Shown: piece after piece, positions 19,123-37,421 of the stretch | Position numbering within the stretch: the stretch's first letter is position 1 | How the letters are laid out: each line of letters opens with the position of its first letter | NCBI GenBank assembly: GCA_001768195.1 | Contig: MENI01000010.1 | Coordinates: 1 to 40,017 of the forward strand | Direction of reading: 5' to 3' | DNA from: Bacteroidetes bacterium GWA2_40_15 | GTDB lineage: Bacteria; Bacteroidota; Bacteroidia; Bacteroidales; VadinHA17 | DNA length: 40,017 nt | Position numbers and translations under genes: made by a program | Notes under the pieces: model-generated | What the model was told of the DNA's origin: nothing | The model's database searches: none | Seen by the model: the letters and a program-made list of their open reading frames with translations, nothing else

Positions 19123-20625
19123 ATGTATTTTAAGATTATTTTAGTTGCAACTTTAGCTTTTATTATGGCCGGTTGCAACCACAGTCACGAAACTGATAAT
19201 CAACCTGAACAGGAAGAAGTAAAGTTTCAATATACTGCGTACAGTAATAACTTTGAACTTTTTGCTGAAGCCGACCCTTTTGTTGCAGGGCAAACCTCAA
19301 ATGTTCTGTCACACCTATCCAACCTGCCGGATTTTACTGCTGTAGAGAAAGGTGCAATCACTTTGAGAATAATGGTTGGTAATAAAACTACTGAACAAAC
19401 ACTTGAAAGTCCCACCCGTAAGGGAATATATAGCTTTGATATTAAACCCGAAGTTCACGGCAAGGGCACACTTGAATATGTCATTACAACCGAAAGGGGT
19501 GATTTTAAAGTTATAGTACCTGAGATTATTGTTTTTGCTTCTATGCAGGAAGCTGAGGAAGCAGCCGGGAAGATTGTAATTTTAAAAACCAATACCACCG
19601 TTTTTACAAAAGAGCAATCGTGGAAAATGGATTATTCCACTGATAAGCCTTTAAGGGAGTCATTCGGGCAGGTAATAAAAACAACTGCACAAATTCAATC
19701 GGCTCCGGGTGATGAAATGTTAGTTACAGCAAAAACAAACGGTATTATATCTTTTACCGGAAACAGCATGTTAGAGGGAAGGGGTGTTTCAAACGGTCAA
19801 TTACTATTTACGATAACAGGTAGTGGATTTGCTGATAATAATTCGGCTGTTCGATATGCTGAGGCTCAAAACAATTTTGAGAAAGCAAAAGCGGATTATG
19901 ACAGAGCAAGTGTGTTAGCTGAAGACAAGATTGTGTCCGGGAAAGATTTATTACAAGCCAAAAACCTATACGAAAACACCAAATTAGTATATGATAATCT
20001 CAAGCAAAATTTTAGTGCTTCAGGACAGTCAGTTACAAGTCCGATGACAGGTTATATAAAAAGGCTATTTGTAACAAACGGACAATATGTTGAGGCTGGT
20101 CAGCCTGTAATTATGGTTTCACTGAATAAAACACTTGTACTTCGAGCAGAAGTTCAACAAAAATATGCTCCTTATCTGGAAGCTATTTCAACAGCAACCA
20201 TTAGAATCTTAGGAGAAAATAAAACATACTCGCTTGAAGAATTAAATGGTAAAATTTTGTCCTTTGGAAGAACTACCAGTTCAGATAATTACCTGATACC
20301 GGTAAGTATTCAAATAGACAATACTGGTAGTTTCATTCCGGGTAGTTTTGTGGAATTATTTTTAAAAACAGTAACAAACTCACAGGCACTTACCTTACCA
20401 AGTACCTCACTCCTTGAAGAGCAGGGTAATTATTTCGTTTACGTTCAGGTTACGCCTGAATTATTTGAAAAGAGGGAAATAAAGACCGGGGGAACAGATG
20501 GTATTAAAACAGAAATTATTCGGGGGATTTCTGAAAATGACCGGGTTGTGACAAAGGGTGCAATCTTAATCAAACTTGCTCAGGCTACCGGCACATTAGA
20601 TGCTCACTCAGGTCATGTTCATTAA
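19123..20625 (+). CDS. RND efflux periplasmic adaptor subunit (CusB/CzcB-like lipoprotein)
   Basis: The 500-residue adaptor would link the inner-membrane pump to the outer-membrane channel. It starts with a lipobox IMAGC (C18) and a His-containing segment CNHSHE. Residues about 30-150 form an extra N-terminal beta domain typical of metal-type adaptors. The barrel-sandwich and hairpin follow: a first lipoyl half around residues 195-240, a coiled hairpin about 245-300 (AEAQNNFEKAKADYDRA) and a second half with SPMTGYIKRLFVTNGQYVEAGQPV. The membrane-proximal domain is near the C terminus, and the tail DAHSGHVH is again His-rich. It lies 14 bp upstream of the pump gene. Confidence 0.9.
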   Translation: MYFKIILVATLAFIMAGCNHSHETDNQPEQEEVKFQYTAYSNNFELFAEADPFVAGQTSNVLSHLSNLPDFTAVEKGAITLRIMVGNKTTEQTLESPTRKGIYSFDIKPEVHGKGTLEYVITTERGDFKVIVPEIIVFASMQEAEEAAGKIVILKTNTTVFTKEQSWKMDYSTDKPLRESFGQVIKTTAQIQSAPGDEMLVTAKTNGIISFTGNSMLEGRGVSNGQLLFTITGSGFADNNSAVRYAEAQNNFEKAKADYDRASVLAEDKIVSGKDLLQAKNLYENTKLVYDNLKQNFSASGQSVTSPMTGYIKRLFVTNGQYVEAGQPVIMVSLNKTLVLRAEVQQKYAPYLEAISTATIRILGENKTYSLEELNGKILSFGRTTSSDNYLIPVSIQIDNTGSFIPGSFVELFLKTVTNSQALTLPSTSLLEEQGNYFVYVQVTPELFEKREIKTGGTDGIKTEIIRGISENDRVVTKGAILIKLAQATGTLDAHSGHVH

Positions 20626-20639
20626 TAAACCGGGAAATC

Positions 20640-23600
20640 ATGATTAATAATATTCTAAGATTCTCACTGAATAATAAGTTCCTGATTATACTTTGTTCAG
20701 TGGTGTTAGTGGTTTTCGGGATGAGAACGGCTGTAAATATGGATGTGGATGTATTCCCTGACCTGACTGCTCCTACTGTGGTTGTGATGACAGATGCTCA
20801 CGGGATGGCTTCAGAAGAGGTAGAACGGATGGTTACATTTCCAATTGAAACTTCGGTTAATGGTGCAACAGGTGTGCGCAGGGTACGTTCAGCATCGTCT
20901 CAGGGTTTTTCGTTTGTATGGGTAGAGTTTGATTGGGGTACAGATATTTTCAAAGCTCGTCAGATTGTCAGTGAAAAACTAATAACAGTTTCATCCCGGA
21001 TGCCTTTGGGTGTCGGGCAACCTGTACTTGCCCCTCAGTCAAGCGTTATGGGTGAAATCTTTTTTATCGGTATTCAGGCTGATAGTACAAGCCTGATGGA
21101 ACTACGAACCATTGCTGAATGGAACATAAAACCATTGCTCCTGGCAACAGGTGGAGTTTCGCAGGTAACAATTATAGGTGGCGATTATAAGCAATATCAG
21201 GTACTTGCCAATTCACAAAAAATGAAATTTTATCATGTTTCAATGACTGAACTGGCAGATGTATGCAAAGGTATAAGCCAGAACTCAACAGGTGGTGTAA
21301 TCAGGCAATATGGGAATGAGTATGTTGTCAGAGGCATTGCCAGAACTTCAGAATCAGAGGCATTGGGTAATTCGTACATTAAGTCAGTCAATGGCAAACC
21401 TGTGAGAATAAATGATGTTGCTGAGGTAAAGATTGGTAGTGCTGTTAAAATGGGTTATGCATCAGAAAATGCCAAGCCTGCTGTTATAATTTCCATTTCC
21501 AAACAACCAAATACAAATACTCTTGATGTGACCCAACGGATAGAAATTAACCTTCAAACATTGCAGAAAACATTACCTGTTGATGTTAAACTGGATACAA
21601 AAATATTCCGGCAGGCAGATTTTATTGAGACATCTGTCAGTAATGTTCAAAAAGCATTATTGGAAGGTGGCATATTTGTTGTTATAATCCTGTTCATTTT
21701 TTTAGGCAGTTTTCGAACTACACTTATATCTCTCCTTGCAATACCGATATCCCTGCTTGGTGCAATAATCGTGTTGAAAATGCTTGGACTGAACATTAAT
21801 ACGATGAGCCTTGGTGGTATGGCAATTGCAATTGGGGCATTGGTTGACGATGCCATCATTGATGTAGAAAATGTTTATAAACGCCTTCGGCAAAACAGGC
21901 AGAAACCGATTGACCAACAACAATCGGCATTTACGGTTGTTTTCGAGGCATCAAAAGAAATCAGAGCTTCTATACTCATTGCTACAATGATTATTATCGT
22001 GGCATTTATTCCTCTGTTTTTTCTTTCCGGAATGGAAGGCAGGATGTTGAAACCGCTTGGTATATCTTTTATTGTATCTCTTTTTGTTTCACTTATTGTC
22101 GCCATGACACTTACTCCTTTACTGTCAAAGATGCTGCTATCAAACGAAAAATATCTGGCTAAGAACGAGAAGGAGAAGTGGTTGGTACGCAAGCTTACAT
22201 TTTACTACGAAAAATCACTTGTCTGGTCACTTAAACACAAAAAAGCAATTGTGTTTTCGACATTGGGATTATTTGTTATTTCGTTAATTGCCATGTCATC
22301 GATGGGACGAAGTTTCCTGCCTGAATTTAATGAGGGTTCATTAACTCTTTCAGTTATTACTAAACCGGGAGCATCTTTGGAAGAAAGTAACAGACTTGGA
22401 AATCTTGCGGAATCGGAGTTATTAACTATAACCGAAGTTTCAAGCACAGCACGAAGAACAGGTCGGGGAGAACTGGATGAACATTCACAAACAACTAATA
22501 GTGCTGAGATTGATATCAACTTCAAATTAAAGGAACGCAGCAGAGAAGAATTTATGGCTGATGTGCGTAACACATTATCCGGAATCCCCGGAATTGCATA
22601 TACTGTAGGGCAACCGCTTGGACATCGGATAGACCACATGCTTTCAGGAACAAGAGCCAATATAGCTATCAAACTATTTGGTTCTGACCTAAATAAAATG
22701 TTTGCAATTGGGAATCAAATTAAAAGGTCAATAGTTGATATTGAAGGTTTGGTTGATGTAAATGTTGACCAGCAGATTGAAATTCCACAAATTCAAATAA
22801 GAGCAAATCGTGATATGCTTGCTCAATATGGAATAACGACTCAGAAATTTAACGAATTTGTTGATGTAGCATTTGGCGGAGAAAAACTATCTGACATTTA
22901 CGAAGGGCAACGTAGTTTCGGTCTGGTATTGAGACTCGATAAAGATTATACAGAAACCATAGATGGCATCAGCTCAGCACTCATAGATACTCATGACGGG
23001 AAAAAAGTTCCGCTTGAACAGGTGGCAGATATTGTATCGGTGTCAGGTCCGAGTTCCATTAGTCGTGAGAATGTTCAGCGCAAAATTGTTATTTCAGCTA
23101 ATGTTGCAGGACGTGACCTAAGAGGTTCAGTTGAGGAAATTCAAAAAAACATTAACGAAACGATAACCTTACCGGAAGGTTACAGGATTGAATATGGTGG
23201 TCAGTTCGAGAGCGAAGCTAAAGCATCCCAAACCCTTATGCTTACTTCACTGATAGCATTATTGATAATATTTTTATTGTTGTTTCAGGAGTTTAAAAAC
23301 TTCAAACTGGCAGGGATTATCCTTCTCAATTTACCTTTAGCTTTAATTGGTGGTGTATTTGCAATTTATTTCACTTCAGGTATTCTCAGCATTCCGGCAA
23401 TCATCGGTTTCATAACACTTTTTGGGATAGCTACACGAAATGGTATTTTGCTTGTTTCACATTATCAACATTTGCAGCAAAATGGTGTATCATTGATGGA
23501 AACTATTACGAAAGGTTCAGCAGACAGGCTTAATCCAATATTAATGACCGCTTTGACGGCTGCCCTTGCACTTATTCCTCTGGCTCTAAGAGGTAATCTT

Positions 23601-23741
23601 GCAGGAAACGAAATTCAAAGTCCAATGGCAAAGGTAATTCTCGGTGGATTGATAACATCCACTCTATTGAATATCTACATCGTTCCAATTGTATATAGCT
23701 CACTCAGGAATCGTGGAATTTTAAAAAATGACAATATATGA
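20640..23741 (+). CDS. Heavy-metal RND efflux pump (CusA/CzcA-like)
   Basis: The 1033-residue inner-membrane pump has the RND layout: TM1 (residues about 10-30), a large periplasmic loop (VDVFPDLTAPTVVVMTD, MVTFPIETSVNGATGVRRVRS), TM2-6 (about 335-480), a second loop and TM7-12. In TM4, GALVDDAIIDVEN contains acidic residues D403, D404, D408 and E410, which include the proton-relay positions of the heavy-metal subfamily. The first-loop start and the SLGGMAIAIGALVDD phrase place it with metal (HME) rather than drug pumps. Exported ion is not determined: Cu/Ag and Co/Zn/Cd types cannot be separated here. Its stop overlaps the TolC-like start by 4 bp. Confidence 0.93.
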   Translation: MINNILRFSLNNKFLIILCSVVLVVFGMRTAVNMDVDVFPDLTAPTVVVMTDAHGMASEEVERMVTFPIETSVNGATGVRRVRSASSQGFSFVWVEFDWGTDIFKARQIVSEKLITVSSRMPLGVGQPVLAPQSSVMGEIFFIGIQADSTSLMELRTIAEWNIKPLLLATGGVSQVTIIGGDYKQYQVLANSQKMKFYHVSMTELADVCKGISQNSTGGVIRQYGNEYVVRGIARTSESEALGNSYIKSVNGKPVRINDVAEVKIGSAVKMGYASENAKPAVIISISKQPNTNTLDVTQRIEINLQTLQKTLPVDVKLDTKIFRQADFIETSVSNVQKALLEGGIFVVIILFIFLGSFRTTLISLLAIPISLLGAIIVLKMLGLNINTMSLGGMAIAIGALVDDAIIDVENVYKRLRQNRQKPIDQQQSAFTVVFEASKEIRASILIATMIIIVAFIPLFFLSGMEGRMLKPLGISFIVSLFVSLIVAMTLTPLLSKMLLSNEKYLAKNEKEKWLVRKLTFYYEKSLVWSLKHKKAIVFSTLGLFVISLIAMSSMGRSFLPEFNEGSLTLSVITKPGASLEESNRLGNLAESELLTITEVSSTARRTGRGELDEHSQTTNSAEIDINFKLKERSREEFMADVRNTLSGIPGIAYTVGQPLGHRIDHMLSGTRANIAIKLFGSDLNKMFAIGNQIKRSIVDIEGLVDVNVDQQIEIPQIQIRANRDMLAQYGITTQKFNEFVDVAFGGEKLSDIYEGQRSFGLVLRLDKDYTETIDGISSALIDTHDGKKVPLEQVADIVSVSGPSSISRENVQRKIVISANVAGRDLRGSVEEIQKNINETITLPEGYRIEYGGQFESEAKASQTLMLTSLIALLIIFLLLFQEFKNFKLAGIILLNLPLALIGGVFAIYFTSGILSIPAIIGFITLFGIATRNGILLVSHYQHLQQNGVSLMETITKGSADRLNPILMTALTAALALIPLALRGNLAGNEIQSPMAKVILGGLITSTLLNIYIVPIVYSSLRNRGILKNDNI

Positions 23742-30975: not shown

Positions 30976-32616
30976 ATGACTTCAAAAAATAATCAATTAA
31001 CCAGTAAACAGGCATGGAAAGCCCTCGCGGCTAATCAAAAGAATGGGATACCACATCTCAGGGATCTTTTCACAAAAGATCCCAAACGTGGCGAGAAAAT
31101 GACACTTGAGGCTGCAGGTCTTTTTCTGGATTATTCAAAAAACCGGATAACCGATGAGACTTTCCGTCTTCTCCTCAATCTTGCAACAGAATCTGGTCTT
31201 AAAGACCACATAGATGCTATGTTCAATGGTGAAAAAATCAATATTACCGAGAACCGGTCAGTTTTGCATGTCGCATTGCGTGCACCCAAAAACGCATCCA
31301 TAATTGTCGATGGCGTAAATGTGGTGCCCCAGGTACATGAAGTACTTGAGAAAATGACAGATTTTGCTGACAGGCTCAGAAGTGGCTCATGGAAGGGATA
31401 TAGTGGCAAACGTATCAGAAATATAATCAATATTGGTATTGGAGGATCAGACCTTGGTCCTGTTATGGCATACGAAGCACTTAAGTATTATTGTGACCGT
31501 TCGCTGACTTTCAGGTTTGTATCGAATATCGACGGAACGGACTTTGCTGAAGCCGTAATTGATCTGAATTCTGAAGAAACTCTCTTTATTGTATCCTCAA
31601 AGACTTTCACAACCATTGAGACAATGACTAACGCTCTCACAGCCCGTGATTGGTTACTGAAGGCATTCAAAGGAGATGATAAGGCGATAGCTAAACATTT
31701 TGTCGCAGTCTCAACCAATGCTGCATTAGTGGAGAAATTTGGTATAGACACAGCGAATATGTTTGGTTTCTGGGACTGGGTTGGCGGCAGGTATTCAATG
31801 GATTCCGCAATTGGTCTTGCCACAATGCTCGCCATCGGACCCCGGAACTTCAGAGCGATGCTCGATGGCTTCCATCAGATGGATGAGCATTTCCGTACTG
31901 CCCCGTTTGAATCTAATCTGCCCGTAATAATGGGTCTTCTTGGTATTTGGAATACGAACTTCTACGGTGCGGAAACTGTCGCAGTCCTCCCCTATGAGCA
32001 ATACCTTAAACGATTCCCTGCATACCTTCAGCAACTTACAATGGAAAGCAACGGAAAGCATGTCACGCTCGATGGAGTTGAGGTGGATTATCAGACCAGT
32101 CCCATTTATTGGGGTGAGCCCGGCACTAACGGACAGCACTCTTTTTATCAGTTAATACACCAGGGTACGAGGCTTATCCCATGTGATTTTATTGCTTTTG
32201 CCGAGCCGCTAAATAACATCGGCAGGCACCATGATATTCTGATGGCAAATGTATTCGCCCAGGCAGAGGCCCTGGCCTTCGGAAAAACTCCCGAGCAGGT
32301 TAGGTCAGAGGGTGTACCGGAATGGCTTGCTCCACATAAGGTTTTTGAAGGCAACCGGCCATCAAATACCATTATGGCCCAAAAGCTTACACCAGAGGTA
32401 CTTGGCAAGCTTGTTGCACTTTATGAACACATTGTATTCACCCAGGGTGCAATATGGAACATAGGTTCATTCGACCAGTGGGGAGTGGAACTGGGCAAGG
32501 TGCTGGCTCAGCGTATCATTCCTGAACTCGAGAGCAAAACGGAGCCTGAACCAAGGCATGACACTTCAACAAATAATCTGATCCGGCGTTACCGGAAGCA
32601 AAGAAGATCTGAATGA
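30976..32616 (+). CDS. pgi: Glucose-6-phosphate isomerase
   Basis: Interconverts glucose 6-phosphate and fructose 6-phosphate in the cytoplasm. The 546 residues are full length for the long bacterial/eukaryotic-type enzyme. Signature segments include [32 protein letters not shown] (phosphate-binding), [28 protein letters not shown], and [20 protein letters not shown] with the catalytic Glu/His environment. It is transcribed divergently from the GH13 gene over about 100 bp. Product flow from pgmB fits: Glc1P to Glc6P to Fru6P. The stop overlaps the DUF364 gene start by 4 bp (ATGA), which links the metal-related pair behind it to pgi expression. Confidence 0.97.
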
Positions 32617-33413
32617 TTATAGAGGATACATACAACCTGTTAAAAAGCAGGTATAAAAACCGGCTTGAAGAGCTGTCAATATCTGATGTGAGAATTGGAA
32701 CATACCTCACTGCTGTAAGGTTATCTGACGGAAGCATCGGTGCTTCCGCCACATTAACAGATGACCAGCCTTTCTGTGCAAAAAGCAGCAGGGATTTCGG
32801 TGATTTTACACCTCTGAAAATCAGGGGACAAAAAGTAATGGATATCTTTGAATCAGAGAAAAAGTCAAACACATTCTTTTCACTGAAAATGGCAGTCTTA
32901 AATGCCATCTCTTCAAAGTTTATTTCATCAGGGAATTATAAGATCATTGAAGATAAGGATCCCATTCAGTTAGTTAATCTTGACTCAAAGAAAACCATTA
33001 CAGTTGTCGGAGCTTTTCATTCATATATAAGGAAAATTTCAGAAACGCAAAATAAATTGTATGTACTGGAACTGAATGAAGAGGCTCTTCCGGCAGAATA
33101 CCGGAAATTCTTTATCCCGGCCGGGAAATTCAAATCAGTTATTCCGCTATCGGATATAGTTATTATCACAGGTCAGACTCTTGTTAACAGTACGATCGAT
33201 GATCTGCTGTTTTCAATATCTTCCGGCTCTCAGGTTATAGTGACCGGACCTTCGAGCAGCATAATTCCCGATATCTTGTTTGAAAATAAAGTAAGCATCA
33301 TCGGAGCTGTAAAAATCACAAAACCTGAAATTCTGTTCGATATAGTTAGTGAAGGTGGCACAGGTTTTCACCTGTTTGAATATTGCGCACAGAAAATCTG
33401 CATCATAAAGTGA
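32613..33413 (+). CDS. DUF364/DUF4213 putative metal-chelation protein
   Basis: The 266-residue soluble protein matches the DUF4213-DUF364 architecture: an N-terminal enolase-like lobe (residues about 1-100, [28 protein letters not shown]) and a C-terminal Rossmann-like lobe (from about 115: [60 protein letters not shown]). A structure from this family suggested heavy-metal binding, and relatives lie beside metal or cofactor transporters; the exact role is not established. It overlaps pgi by 4 bp and precedes the membrane-NTPase gene by one base, so the three should be one transcript. It could deliver a metal or cofactor to, or receive it from, that transporter. Confidence 0.82.
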
Positions 33414-33414
33414 G

Positions 33415-35127
33415 ATGGAGCACAGAATAAGTGAAAAGTGGATTAAGGCATCAATCGCTGGGACAATCTGGGCCGCATCGGAAATAGTTCTTGGCAGCTT
33501 TCTGCATAATCTTAAGGTGCCTTTCAGTGGCAATATACTGACAGCGATCGGAATTGTTATTCTGATATCGATAAGTTACACCTGGACAGAAAAGGGGCTT
33601 TTCTGGCGTGCCGGGTTGATATGCGCGCTGATGAAAACCATGTCGCCCAGTGCGGTGATTTTCGGTCCCATGATAGCCATTTTCACCGAAGCATTTCTGC
33701 TGGAGTTATCCGTAAGGCTTTTAGGAAGGACGGTTGCCGGATTTGCAATTGGTTCAATGCTGGCCATGTCGTGGAACCTGGTTCAGAAGATCCTCAACTA
33801 CATAATATTTTACGGATCGAATATCATCGGGGTATACACTGATCTTTTGAATCTTGCCCGGAAGCAGCTTAGTATCGAGACGGATATTGTCTGGATACCG
33901 GTCATCATTCTCTTAGTCCTATATGCTTTGTTCGGTCTGCTGGCTGCTGTAACAGGGATCAGAGTCGGGAGGAAAATGTTAAGACAGCCGGTCCGCGATT
34001 TGCACGTAAAAATTAACAAGCCATCCGGGGAAGTCCCCCGCAATACAGGAAAGGAATTTAATTATTCTATCACCTGGCTTTTAATTAATGTTGGTCTGAT
34101 CATCTGTTCTTTCATTTTATTAAGCAGAACAACCTGGGTTGTATGGAGCCTGGCTATAACAGGAATTGTGATTATATGGGCCGTAAGGTATAAGAGGGCT
34201 TTGCGCCAGCTCTCGAAGCCCGGGTTCTGGATCCTGTTTGTATTTATCACGCTGGTTACCGCCTTTGTTTTTACAGAGGCTCAGCCTGGTGAGAATTCGC
34301 TGTTGAAAGGTCTGCTGACAGGGATACAGATGAATTTCAGGGCAGCAATGATCATAGTAGGTTTTGCAGTAACAGGGACCGAATTATACAATCCTGTTAT
34401 CAGGAGCTTTTTTTTAAAAACCTCATTTAAAAATCTTCCCCTGGCTCTTGAGCTTTCGGCTGAAAGCCTCCCGCTATTTATTGCTAATATACCGGATTTC
34501 AAAAGTCTTGTTAAGAATCCGGTGTCAATCTTTTACCAGGTGATATCGCATGCAGACATGCGATTGAATGAAATAAAGGGGAGAGTAGTTCCGGGTCAGA
34601 AAGTGTTTATTGTAACCGGATCGATAAGGGGAGGAAAGACAACTTTTGTAAAAATGTTAATTGAATTTCTCAATATCAACAATATTAAAGCCGGAGGCAT
34701 ACTTTCGGAGCGAATCATGGATGGTTCTGTGACTACCGGTTATGATCTTGTTAACATCGTAACAGGCAAGAAGAAAGAATTCCTCAGACAGGACCGAGAG
34801 TGCAGAGGCGGAAAGATAGGAAAATTCAATATCTGTGAAAAAGGTCTTGTGGAAGGTAAGAAGATAATAAACTCCCTCATTAACAACGAAAACAAGCTTG
34901 TTATCATTGATGAGGTCGGGCTTCTGGAGATTCAGAACAACGGATGGTCAGATTGTATCAATGCCTTGCTGGGAAAACCGTCAAATCATATTTTATTGAC
35001 AGTCAGGGATATATATGTAGCCGAAGTGATAAAAAAATGGAATCTCAGAGAGCCGGTTATTTTTAATATCAGCGAAACTGATTGTCAGAATGCCGGAAAG
35101 TCTATAATAGAACAAATTAATTCTTAA
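33415..35127 (+). CDS. Polytopic membrane protein fused to a C-terminal THEP1-like NTPase
   Basis: The 570 residues fall into three parts. Residues 10-185 hold about five helices (WAASEIVLGSFLHNLKVPF, FGPMIAIFTEAFLLEL) resembling an ECF S-component or related small permease. Residues 217-365 add three or four helices and an amphipathic segment (NFRAAMIIVGFAVTGTELYN, LALELSAESLPLFIANI) reminiscent of an EcfT coupling protein. Residues 395-565 are a THEP1-type NTPase (PF03266-like) with Walker A GSIRGGKTT (402-410, K408), AGGILSERI and Walker B KLVIIDEVG (D499, E500). ABC signature LSGGQ is absent. I infer NTP-driven or NTP-gated transport; the S and T likenesses are by eye and tentative, the NTPase call is firm. 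Confidence 0.7.
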   Translation: MEHRISEKWIKASIAGTIWAASEIVLGSFLHNLKVPFSGNILTAIGIVILISISYTWTEKGLFWRAGLICALMKTMSPSAVIFGPMIAIFTEAFLLELSVRLLGRTVAGFAIGSMLAMSWNLVQKILNYIIFYGSNIIGVYTDLLNLARKQLSIETDIVWIPVIILLVLYALFGLLAAVTGIRVGRKMLRQPVRDLHVKINKPSGEVPRNTGKEFNYSITWLLINVGLIICSFILLSRTTWVVWSLAITGIVIIWAVRYKRALRQLSKPGFWILFVFITLVTAFVFTEAQPGENSLLKGLLTGIQMNFRAAMIIVGFAVTGTELYNPVIRSFFLKTSFKNLPLALELSAESLPLFIANIPDFKSLVKNPVSIFYQVISHADMRLNEIKGRVVPGQKVFIVTGSIRGGKTTFVKMLIEFLNINNIKAGGILSERIMDGSVTTGYDLVNIVTGKKKEFLRQDRECRGGKIGKFNICEKGLVEGKKIINSLINNENKLVIIDEVGLLEIQNNGWSDCINALLGKPSNHILLTVRDIYVAEVIKKWNLREPVIFNISETDCQNAGKSIIEQINS

Positions 35128-35182: not shown

Positions 35183-35950
35183 ATGAGTTCAGTCCTTCAA
35201 TCCCTCCATCCCGATCTTACCCCGGGCTTATTCATTCTATTCCTTTTATCAGCGCTGACCATAGGAATGTCAAAGGCAGGCCTGAGCGGACTAGGACTGG
35301 CCATGGTGCCTATGATGGCACTTATTTTCGGAGCCCGGGAATCAACTGGGGTGATCCTGCCTATGCTAATTACTGCCGATATTATGGCTGTTGTCTATTA
35401 CAGAAGTCATGCAGTATGGAAACATATTATCAGGGTTATCCCCTGGGCAGTTGCAGGGATAATCATCGCCCTTATTCTCGGTAACCTTATAAATGACAAT
35501 CAGTTCAGAATGATTCTTCTGACCATAGTATGGATTATGCTCATTTTAATGCTGGCAAATGACCTCCGGCAGAAAAAGGGTACAGAAATTCCTGAAAATC
35601 ATTTTTTTGCATCAGTGATGGGACTGGCTGGAGGATTTTCAACAATGATCGGGAATGCAGCAGGTCCGGTTTTTACACTCTACTTCCTGTCAATGCACCT
35701 TCCCAAGAAAGAGTTCATTGGAACAAGTGCATGGCTTTTTCTGATACTAAATGCGGGAAAGCTGCCATTGCAGGCCCTCGTGTGGAAAAATATTACAATG
35801 ACCACTCTCAAACTCGATCTTATTGCTGTTCCCGTAATAGCTACAGGGTTCTTTATCGGAATTTATATTGTAAAACTTCTTCCGGAAAGAGTATACAGGT
35901 TTTTTGTAATTTTTGCGACCCTGGCTACATCATTGTTGCTGTTTCTATGA
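35183..35950 (+). CDS. TauE/SafE (TSUP) family permease
   Basis: The 255 residues form about eight membrane helices with the two-fold repeat of the TSUP family. The first half has TIGMSKAGLSGLGLAMVPMMALIFGARESTGVILPMLI and the second GLAGGFSTMIGNAAGPVFTLYFLSM, in the usual order. Known relatives export sulfite, sulfoacetate or organosulfur anions; no substrate can be read here. It starts 55 bp after the membrane-NTPase gene on the same strand and may extend that operon. It ends exactly one base before the stop of the convergent folB, leaving no intergenic space. Confidence 0.87.
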   Translation: MSSVLQSLHPDLTPGLFILFLLSALTIGMSKAGLSGLGLAMVPMMALIFGARESTGVILPMLITADIMAVVYYRSHAVWKHIIRVIPWAVAGIIIALILGNLINDNQFRMILLTIVWIMLILMLANDLRQKKGTEIPENHFFASVMGLAGGFSTMIGNAAGPVFTLYFLSMHLPKKEFIGTSAWLFLILNAGKLPLQALVWKNITMTTLKLDLIAVPVIATGFFIGIYIVKLLPERVYRFFVIFATLATSLLLFL

Positions 35951-36541: not shown

Positions 36542-37129
36542 ATGGAAACAATGGAAAAAGATATGACAGGAGAAGAGAGCCTGAGGATTATCACAGACAT
36601 GATAAACAAAACGAAGTTCAATATCCGGCAGGGGAGCTTCCACCTGTTATTCTGGGGATGGCTTATAGTATTCTGCAGCCTTTCAGAATACCTTCTGTTC
36701 AAATTCAGTGACTATGCAACTCCATGGTATATCTGGTTCTTTGTAATACCTGGTGTATTTGTATCCCTTCTCTATGGCTTCATCAAAGGCAAAAAAGCTA
36801 CTGTACACACATATGCCGAGATGATTTATACATGGACATGGATGGCATTCCTGATTGCATCAATAGTATTGTTTATCCTGTTATCTGACAGGATGGGCTC
36901 ATTCGGTCCTTATATCCTTACAGTTGCCGCAATTCCAACTTTTATTTCAGGATTTATTATCAGATTCAGGCCGCTGATTGCAGGTGGTATATCTTTCTGG
37001 TTGTTTGCCCTGGCAGCCCATTTCGGAGGTCAGGAGATTGCAATGCTGTCTGTTCCGGTTGCAATGTTAACCGGTTATCTGATTCCAGGCTATCTTCTTA
37101 AAAGAAAAACTGACAATGATAAAGTTTAA
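36542..37129 (+). CDS. Membrane protein paired with a winged-helix regulator
   Basis: The 195 residues have a polar N-terminal about 30 residues with a helix (EESLRIITDMINKTKFNI) followed by five or six membrane helices in three apparent pairs (HLLFWGWLIVFCSLSEYLLF, WYIWFFVIPGVFVSLLYGF, MIYTWTWMAFLIASIVLFIL, ILTVAAIPTFISGFII, GGISFWLFALAA, VPVAMLTGYLIPGYLL). I recognise no characterised family, though similar membrane proteins often accompany small HTH proteins in Bacteroidetes. Its last 14 bases overlap the regulator gene, indicating coupling. A membrane-linked modulator of the regulator, or its target, is inferred. Confidence 0.75.
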   Translation: METMEKDMTGEESLRIITDMINKTKFNIRQGSFHLLFWGWLIVFCSLSEYLLFKFSDYATPWYIWFFVIPGVFVSLLYGFIKGKKATVHTYAEMIYTWTWMAFLIASIVLFILLSDRMGSFGPYILTVAAIPTFISGFIIRFRPLIAGGISFWLFALAAHFGGQEIAMLSVPVAMLTGYLIPGYLLKRKTDNDKV

Positions 37130-37421
37130 GGATCTTGATCCCCTGTTGCACTCACAATTAAGGCTTGCAGTAATATCGCTTCTGATGAATTCAGAGGCAG
37201 CAGAATTCACCTGGATCAGGGAACAGACAGGGGCTACTGCGGGAAACCTGAGTATCCAGATAACAAAACTTAAGGAGGCAGGCTATATTGAGGTTGAAAA
37301 GAAGTTCAGGAATAACTACCCTCAGACTCTCTGCAGAATTACATCAATGGGAAGAGAGAAGTTTACAGAATATGTAAACGCACTGAAAGAGTATCTCAAT
37401 CCTGACAAATCACGGATTTAA
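37116..37421 (+). CDS. Small winged-helix transcriptional regulator (HTH_34-like)
   Basis: The 101 residues are a single winged-helix domain: DPLLHSQLRLAVISLLMNSE (helix 1), TWIREQTGATAGNLSIQITKLKEAGYIEVEKK (HTH and wing start), PQTLCRITSMGREKFTEYVNAL (wing and last helix). This wording matches the PF13601-type MarR/ArsR-like regulators, dimeric DNA-binding proteins. No ligand or metal site is evident. It overlaps the membrane protein gene by 14 bp. Autoregulation at the promoter at 36462-36493 is possible but unproven. Confidence 0.88.
   Translation: MIKFKDLDPLLHSQLRLAVISLLMNSEAAEFTWIREQTGATAGNLSIQITKLKEAGYIEVEKKFRNNYPQTLCRITSMGREKFTEYVNALKEYLNPDKSRI

Follow-up and report, generated by a model that had tools for sequence, protein, structure and literature searches.

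What is the function of a membrane protein that carries its own nucleoside triphosphatase (NTPase) domain and is encoded directly behind a DUF364 gene? This question is raised by a stretch of 40,017 nucleotides from Bacteroidetes bacterium GWA2_40_15 (contig MENI01000010.1, positions 1 to 40,017; hereafter the window), in which the gene for a DUF4213-DUF364 protein of 266 amino acids (32613..33413, + strand) overlaps the end of pgi (30976..32616, +; PF00342) by four bases and is followed, one base after its end, by an open reading frame (ORF) of 570 amino acids (33415..35127, +). A preliminary description of this DNA had reported the same overlap and spacing, and the coordinates agree. The 570-residue product combines a membrane part with a THEP1-type NTPase in one chain, and the evidence leans towards its being an importer of the molybdenum/tungsten cofactor (Moco) or of the late precursor molybdopterin (MPT). 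Its sequence, domain order, conservation, gene neighbourhoods and distribution across genomes were established directly, and together they suggest a new link between a family of putative S-T-NTPase proteins and the molybdenum/tungsten cofactor.

A predicted ECF-like membrane half joined to a THEP1-type NTPase

Residues 396-570 (34600..35124, +) form a THEP1-type P-loop NTPase domain, with a match to NTPase_1/THEP1 (PF03266) over residues 398-554 that lies above the curated Pfam cut-off (E 2e-18) and a fold that is matched as well as the sequence family. Both a Walker A motif (GSIRGGKT, residues 402-409; 34618..34641, +) and a Walker B motif (LVIIDE, residues 495-500; 34897..34914, +) are present. 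The Walker A pattern recurs in 75 of the 80 members of set A4; of the five members without it, one or more are truncated (L143, with an ambiguous letter, was left out of A4 and of the membrane profile A5). A motif search confined to the window protein and the 80 A4 members found no LSGGQ-like motif in any of them, Pfam gave no match of the fusion to ATP-binding cassette (ABC) permease families at E <= 1, and neither the DUF364 gene nor the fusion gene exceeded an NCBIfam cut-off. The preliminary description had likewise recorded a 570-residue protein with Walker A and B and no ABC signature, its residue numbers being right to within a few, and the profile search that it proposed for the NTPase part yielded the PF03266 match given above.

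With the full model, Foldseek matches at E <= 0.001 were to THEP1 alone. Because a second look within this search hardly probed the membrane half, the membrane part was folded separately. The best solved-structure matches of residues 1-395 were an energy-coupling factor (ECF) S-component for residues 4-192 (33424..33990, +) and ECF T-components for residues 212-395 (34048..34599, +); these are the top five of 1000 chains, at modest Z of 7.2-8.2 and without sequence support, and an hmmsearch of profile A5 against PDB sequences gave no match at E <= 10. Since the membrane half best matches ECF S- and T-components, the predicted folds support a single-chain S-T-NTPase layout, as the preliminary description had surmised. 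Set A6 comprises 20 fused and split members, one of which is cut in the S-like region; W19, E23, G27, H31, P36, G39 and K74 are invariant in all 19 members covering the S-like half, and R309 of the T-like half in 20 of 20.

By prediction, the two membrane halves would have the fold and the order seen in ECF importers, together with a cytoplasmic NTPase. ECF importers use two ABC ATPases, whereas here S, T and a THEP1-type NTPase would share one chain, for which no sequence match to them was found. We do not class the fusion as an ECF transporter, the LSGGQ-bearing pair of ABC ATPases being absent from the protein chain. The described THEP1/NTPCR NTPases (PF03266; 1ye8, 2i3b), with which residues 396-570 share family and fold, are soluble; in the window protein the domain is part of a membrane protein, and in split forms its fusion partner is MobA-like.

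A family kept across Bacteroidota

The fusion occurs as a single copy in its own genome and has a match in 52 of 99 related genomes, mainly as a full-length fusion, with separate membrane and NTPase genes in three (G359, G366 and G388) and weak or NTPase-only matches in two (G371 and G390). From genome_contigs, 454 relatives that encode the protein were reported, and given both counts the family stands beyond chance. The named loci discussed below are the best 80 of these 454; they show 46-76% identity in the best segment, are approximately full length except at contig ends (e.g. L161), and 79 of the 80 kept titles are Bacteroidota, the other (L133) being Candidatus Methylomirabilis. In viral_contigs, four pattern matches to close relatives were obtained and none was confirmed. 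A profile of the membrane part was positive in 17 of 395 genomes of the class, including the own genome; the other 16 encode a shorter membrane protein without a fused NTPase (317-375 amino acids in complete ORFs), one of them (G118) having two membrane-protein ORFs that are both cut by contig ends. The preliminary description had staked its proposal on the NTPase and membrane parts being joined in homologues as well, and the fusion is indeed kept in many relatives.

In another subfamily, whose fused or split members share about 33-37% identity with the window protein, a Nitro_FeMo-Co (NifX-like) gene lies directly 5' (L055, L056, L058-L062, L064-L067, L070 and L077), and this conserved cluster often also contains OsmC, DUF134 and methyltransferase genes.

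DUF364 and a molybdenum neighbourhood

The 266-residue protein matches the Pfam domains DUF364 (PF04016; E 9.7e-35, 119.8 bits, cut-off 23) and DUF4213 (PF13938; E 7.1e-9, 36.3 bits, cut-off 23.5), with PDB relatives 3npg (E 7e-10) and 3l5o (E 0.016). Among the 74 named loci with at least 900 upstream bases, 34 have a DUF364 gene directly 5' of the fusion gene, so the adjacency that the preliminary description wanted surveyed recurs among homologues. The available portion of one report links DUF364 to transport of Mo, W, V and Fe and suggests that it acts on flavin or pterin derivatives (PMC2954201). The window protein is of the same PF04016 kind as those proteins (e.g. Dhaf4260), but the available text pairs them with ABC importers, whereas the partner here is an NTPase-bearing membrane protein.

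Neighbours were surveyed in 51 stretches around homologues, with representatives named by Pfam and NCBIfam. Recurrent among them are PhsA-type molybdopterin oxidoreductases with 4Fe-4S and NrfD subunits, and individual loci hold a DmsABC-type set with MobA (L072), NarGH-type genes, a TonB receptor and a THEP1-like gene together (L081), or the run TonB receptor - DUF364 - fusion - MoeA - MoaB/MogA-like (L050). In Prolixibacter denitrificans (L167) the fusion adjoins NarGH-type genes (NarG 2038 bits to TIGR01580). A MobA-like gene directly adjoins the membrane gene in four loci (L069, L072, L073 and L074) and the NTPase gene in L080, while MOSC proteins are encoded near homologues in L082 and L215. 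A ModE-type N-terminal helix-turn-helix (HTH; TIGR00637) was detected in four loci at E 6e-17 to 6e-22, with scores of 61.5-77.5 bits that lie under the cut-off of 98.5; across the 80 named loci, ModE-type genes occur in 12 and TonB genes in 10. Cofactor regulation, which the preliminary description had raised as a check, found no backing in a Moco riboswitch: Rfam on eight sources returned two tRNAs at gathering scores.

Apart from the own genome there are 16 class-level carriers. In 13 of these a THEP1-like domain or separate gene is adjacent, and in three none is nearby; counted from the stretches around the homologues, MobA is present in 11 and FdhD in eight. Nine of the 16 encode THEP1-like and MobA-like domains in a single protein, and in two more the genes for them are neighbours. 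In these fusions the MobA-like domain is above cut-off in nine of nine and PF03266 in five (L084, L087, L214, L219 and L220), with PF03266 below cut-off in L085 and L217 and unreported in L216 and L218, which are phmmer matches. The membrane-THEP1 fusion and the THEP1-MobA fusion therefore close the chain membrane - THEP1 - MobA.

Carriers with and without Moco synthesis

In the own genome, which is 99.98% complete, loose first-pass searches gave no match to MoaC, MoaE, the MoaA C-domain or ModB. The genome does encode moeA, cut by a contig end, with a moaB/mogA-type gene 48 bases later (L169), as well as FdhD (166 bits, cut-off 140.9) and an NADH-linked formate dehydrogenase (alpha subunit 803.6 bits, cut-off 666.25). 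At the corresponding site G336, G326 and G316 have the order modB-modC-moeA-moaA-moaC-moaB (L180, L182 and L179, respectively), modA being recognised in G336, and G336 and G326 are sisters of the own genome on the protein tree. The moeA-moaB arrangement is also found in G307, G315 and others; in G307 an aldehyde:ferredoxin-oxidoreductase-type gene lies directly 5' of moeA, whereas G336 has modABC between. Compared with L179, L180 and L182, moaA and moaC (and modABC where visible) are missing between or next to moeA and moaB in L169-L172 and L174-L178. The combined pattern together with the synteny gap in the own genome is stronger than single absences.

Among the 99 relatives, matches were obtained to MoaC in 48, to the MoaA C-domain in 47 (34 of them above the curated cut-off), to MoaE in 44, to MoeA in 59 and to PF00384 in 73. 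ModB (TIGR02141) was matched at E <= 0.001 in 79 genomes, five of them above cut-off; since this model probably rings through general ABC permeases, ModB was counted solely at E under about 1e-35, which leaves 47 genomes. The protein is carried by all 13 genomes that have MoeA without MoaA/MoaC, versus 26 of the 46 that have MoeA with MoaA/C (Fisher p 0.0025, ignoring kinship). None of the 20 genomes without MoeA, MoaA/C and PF00384 carries it, and every one of the 52 carriers is positive for one or more of the three, 12 of them for PF00384 with no MoeA, MoaA or MoaC match. The protein tree covers 49 carriers, all but G310, G371 and G390. Thirteen changes of the MoaC label are counted on it, of which well-supported branches force at least 10, so MoaC losses recur, with the reservation that the species tree may differ from that of the protein and that some losses may be assembly gaps; clustering of the label is only weak, 34 of 500 shuffles giving an equally low count. 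Six distant split-form carriers match neither MoaC nor MoeA (completeness 99, 99, 100, 94, 97 and 71%). In five of them MobA is part of the NTPase protein or encoded next to it, and in four the stretch contains FdhD.

The reading that the protein replaces Moco synthesis was rejected, MoaA/C being present in 27 of the 52 carriers. A protein that occurs both with and without Moco synthesis shows the pattern expected of a salvage route.

Weighing the alternatives

Several observations weigh against import of Moco or MPT. In those genomes that lack MoaA/C and keep MoeA and MoaB, the latter two would be superfluous if finished Moco entered the cell, and the many carriers that do encode MoaA or MoaC mostly retain ModB too (24 of 27). 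Six genomes with PF00384 and no MoaA/C or MoeA match also lack the protein; with PF00384 as the sole marker, the protein is weakly associated with the lack of synthesis (23/29 vs 25/44, p 0.077), and some PF00384 matches may be NuoG-type. In a sample of 36 of the 80 named loci, 26 genomes have MoaC and 27 have MoeA, and MoaC is found in four named isolates (Prolixibacter denitrificans, Maribellus luteus, Maribellus sp. CM-23 and Lutibacter sp. B1); this sample and the 99 genomes are not independent, since identical coordinates show at least six genomes to be common to both (G395 and G336, G396 and G351, G397 and G316, G400 and G331, G401 and G333, and G409 and G350). Many of the genomes are metagenome bins, and the S/T resemblance is one of predicted fold. 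Finally, 11 genomes with MoaA or MoaC give no MoaE match, so a search miss is no proof of absence. These are G300, G301, G354, G357, G375, G377, G378, G382, G383, G388 and G389, in which the MPT synthase may have diverged, a gene may have been overlooked or a further step may be lacking; the converse, a MoaE match with no MoaA/MoaC match, is seen in G313, G323, G328, G337, G343, G349 and G369.

Three other explanations fit parts of these data. The protein might import molybdate or tungstate (or be a metal-homeostasis pump) in place of ModABC, the loss of moaA/moaC being a separate event. ModB is found in 2 of the 13 genomes with MoeA and no MoaA/C, against 43 of the 46 with MoeA and MoaA/C, which speaks for this reading, and both the ModE-type regulators near some copies and the available account of DUF364 in metal transport (PMC2954201) point the same way. 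The molybdenum context, including these regulators, is indeed shared with ModABC, TupABC and WtpABC, but the window protein has neither an ABC signature nor a permease family match, and its own genome has no ModB match. We consider an oxyanion substrate unlikely: MobA, found in five of the six split-form carriers negative for MoaC and MoeA, needs finished Mo-MPT to act on, so molybdate alone would be no help to them; ModB is kept by most carriers that have MoaA/C; and TonB receptors suggest a ligand bigger than an oxyanion. Known S-components bind vitamins and similar compounds, which also counts against it.

Still less probable is a role in maturation instead of transport, in which a machine anchored in the membrane would deliver Moco to enzymes there. 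PhsA-, DmsA- and NarG-type enzyme genes do adjoin the protein gene in several loci, but the partner enzymes are of several types, including FdhF-type, the formate dehydrogenase of the own genome is NADH-linked, and the protein's presence in all 13 MoeA-positive genomes without MoaA/C, like its absence from all 20 marker-less ones, also counts against a maturation role. The least probable of the three is that the substrate is another pterin, a flavin or a metal chelate and that an anaerobic way of life common to the carriers accounts for the molybdenum neighbourhood. The subfamily beside NifX-like, OsmC and DUF134 genes would suit such a substrate, as would the suggested action of DUF364 on flavin or pterin derivatives (PMC2954201, available portion); against it stand the occurrence of a MoeA, MoaA/C or PF00384 match in every carrier and the fusion or adjacency to MobA, FdhD and MoeA, which are specific to the Moco pathway.

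A possible route for cofactor uptake

Transport, its direction, substrate and energy coupling are proposed here from sequence, with folds predicted. If Moco or MPT is imported, a TonB receptor, encoded beside some homologues, may carry the rare ligand into the periplasm, where the S-like half could bind it, perhaps via the invariant E23, H31 and K74. The T-like half would couple the S-like half to the cytoplasmic THEP1 domain, whose nucleoside triphosphate hydrolysis may replace the two ABC ATPases of ECF importers; alternatively, THEP1 might modify the ligand and so trap it. The roles of MobA, MogA, MoeA and FdhD in the Moco pathway are established. Inside the cell, the cofactor could pass to MobA, for formation of molybdopterin guanine dinucleotide, and to FdhD-dependent enzymes, whereas MogA and MoeA would insert the metal if the ligand entered as free MPT. 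DUF364 would have an accessory role, perhaps in binding or processing the metal-pterin.

Other genes of the window

Searches of 142 homologue stretches at E <= 1e-8 found no relatives of pgi or of the TauE/SafE-type permease encoded 3' of the fusion on the same strand (35183..35950, +; PF01925, E 6.5e-25), and both are therefore judged accidental neighbours: pgi is taken to be an operon partner by accident, and the permease is probably no component of the system. Just past the permease gene lies a pterin gene, FolB (dihydroneopterin aldolase, PF02152; 35951-36301, -). Further along are a 195-residue protein without a Pfam match that appears hydrophobic by eye (36542-37129, +), an overlapping HTH_34 winged-helix gene (37116-37421, +) and a 23S rRNA intervening-sequence type protein (PF05635; 39392-39853, +) that is also weakly bAvd-like. 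An HlyD-type adaptor (19123-20625, +) and an AcrB-type resistance-nodulation-division pump (20640-23741, +) are encoded upstream.

Significance

In the available text of a survey of almost 5,900 organisms, several hundred have a partial molybdenum trait, mostly molybdoproteins without the complete Moco pathway; most molybdoprotein organisms without that pathway also lack a known molybdenum transporter, and how they cope is left open (PMC6147048). Mature Moco is known to pass between organisms in Caenorhabditis elegans, where dietary Moco is carried by mechanisms that the accessible part of the report calls unknown (PMC9793310); the likeness lies in the transfer, and the difference in that the recipient is an animal. 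For bacteria, some outer-membrane proteins of type XI secretion systems (T11SS) have been suggested, in the portion available, for uptake of cobalamin or molybdopterin (PMC12282271). Within the accessible literature on THEP1, ECF, Moco uptake, salvage or auxotrophy, and molybdenum use by organisms without the pathway, a scope that leaves aside bioRxiv and most subscription journals, no bacterial Moco importer was found.

It is conceivable, though we would put it at somewhat less than an even prospect, that the family is the first Moco importer, a Bacteroidota-wide, one-chain S-T-NTPase with THEP1 in place of the ABC ATPases, and that Moco is a shared, vitamin-like good, which would explain many 'orphan' molybdoenzymes. 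If the family does import the cofactor, the puzzle of molybdoproteins without a Moco pathway becomes directly testable, microbial communities would trade Moco as a nutrient, and the ECF principle would be seen to run on a different motor.

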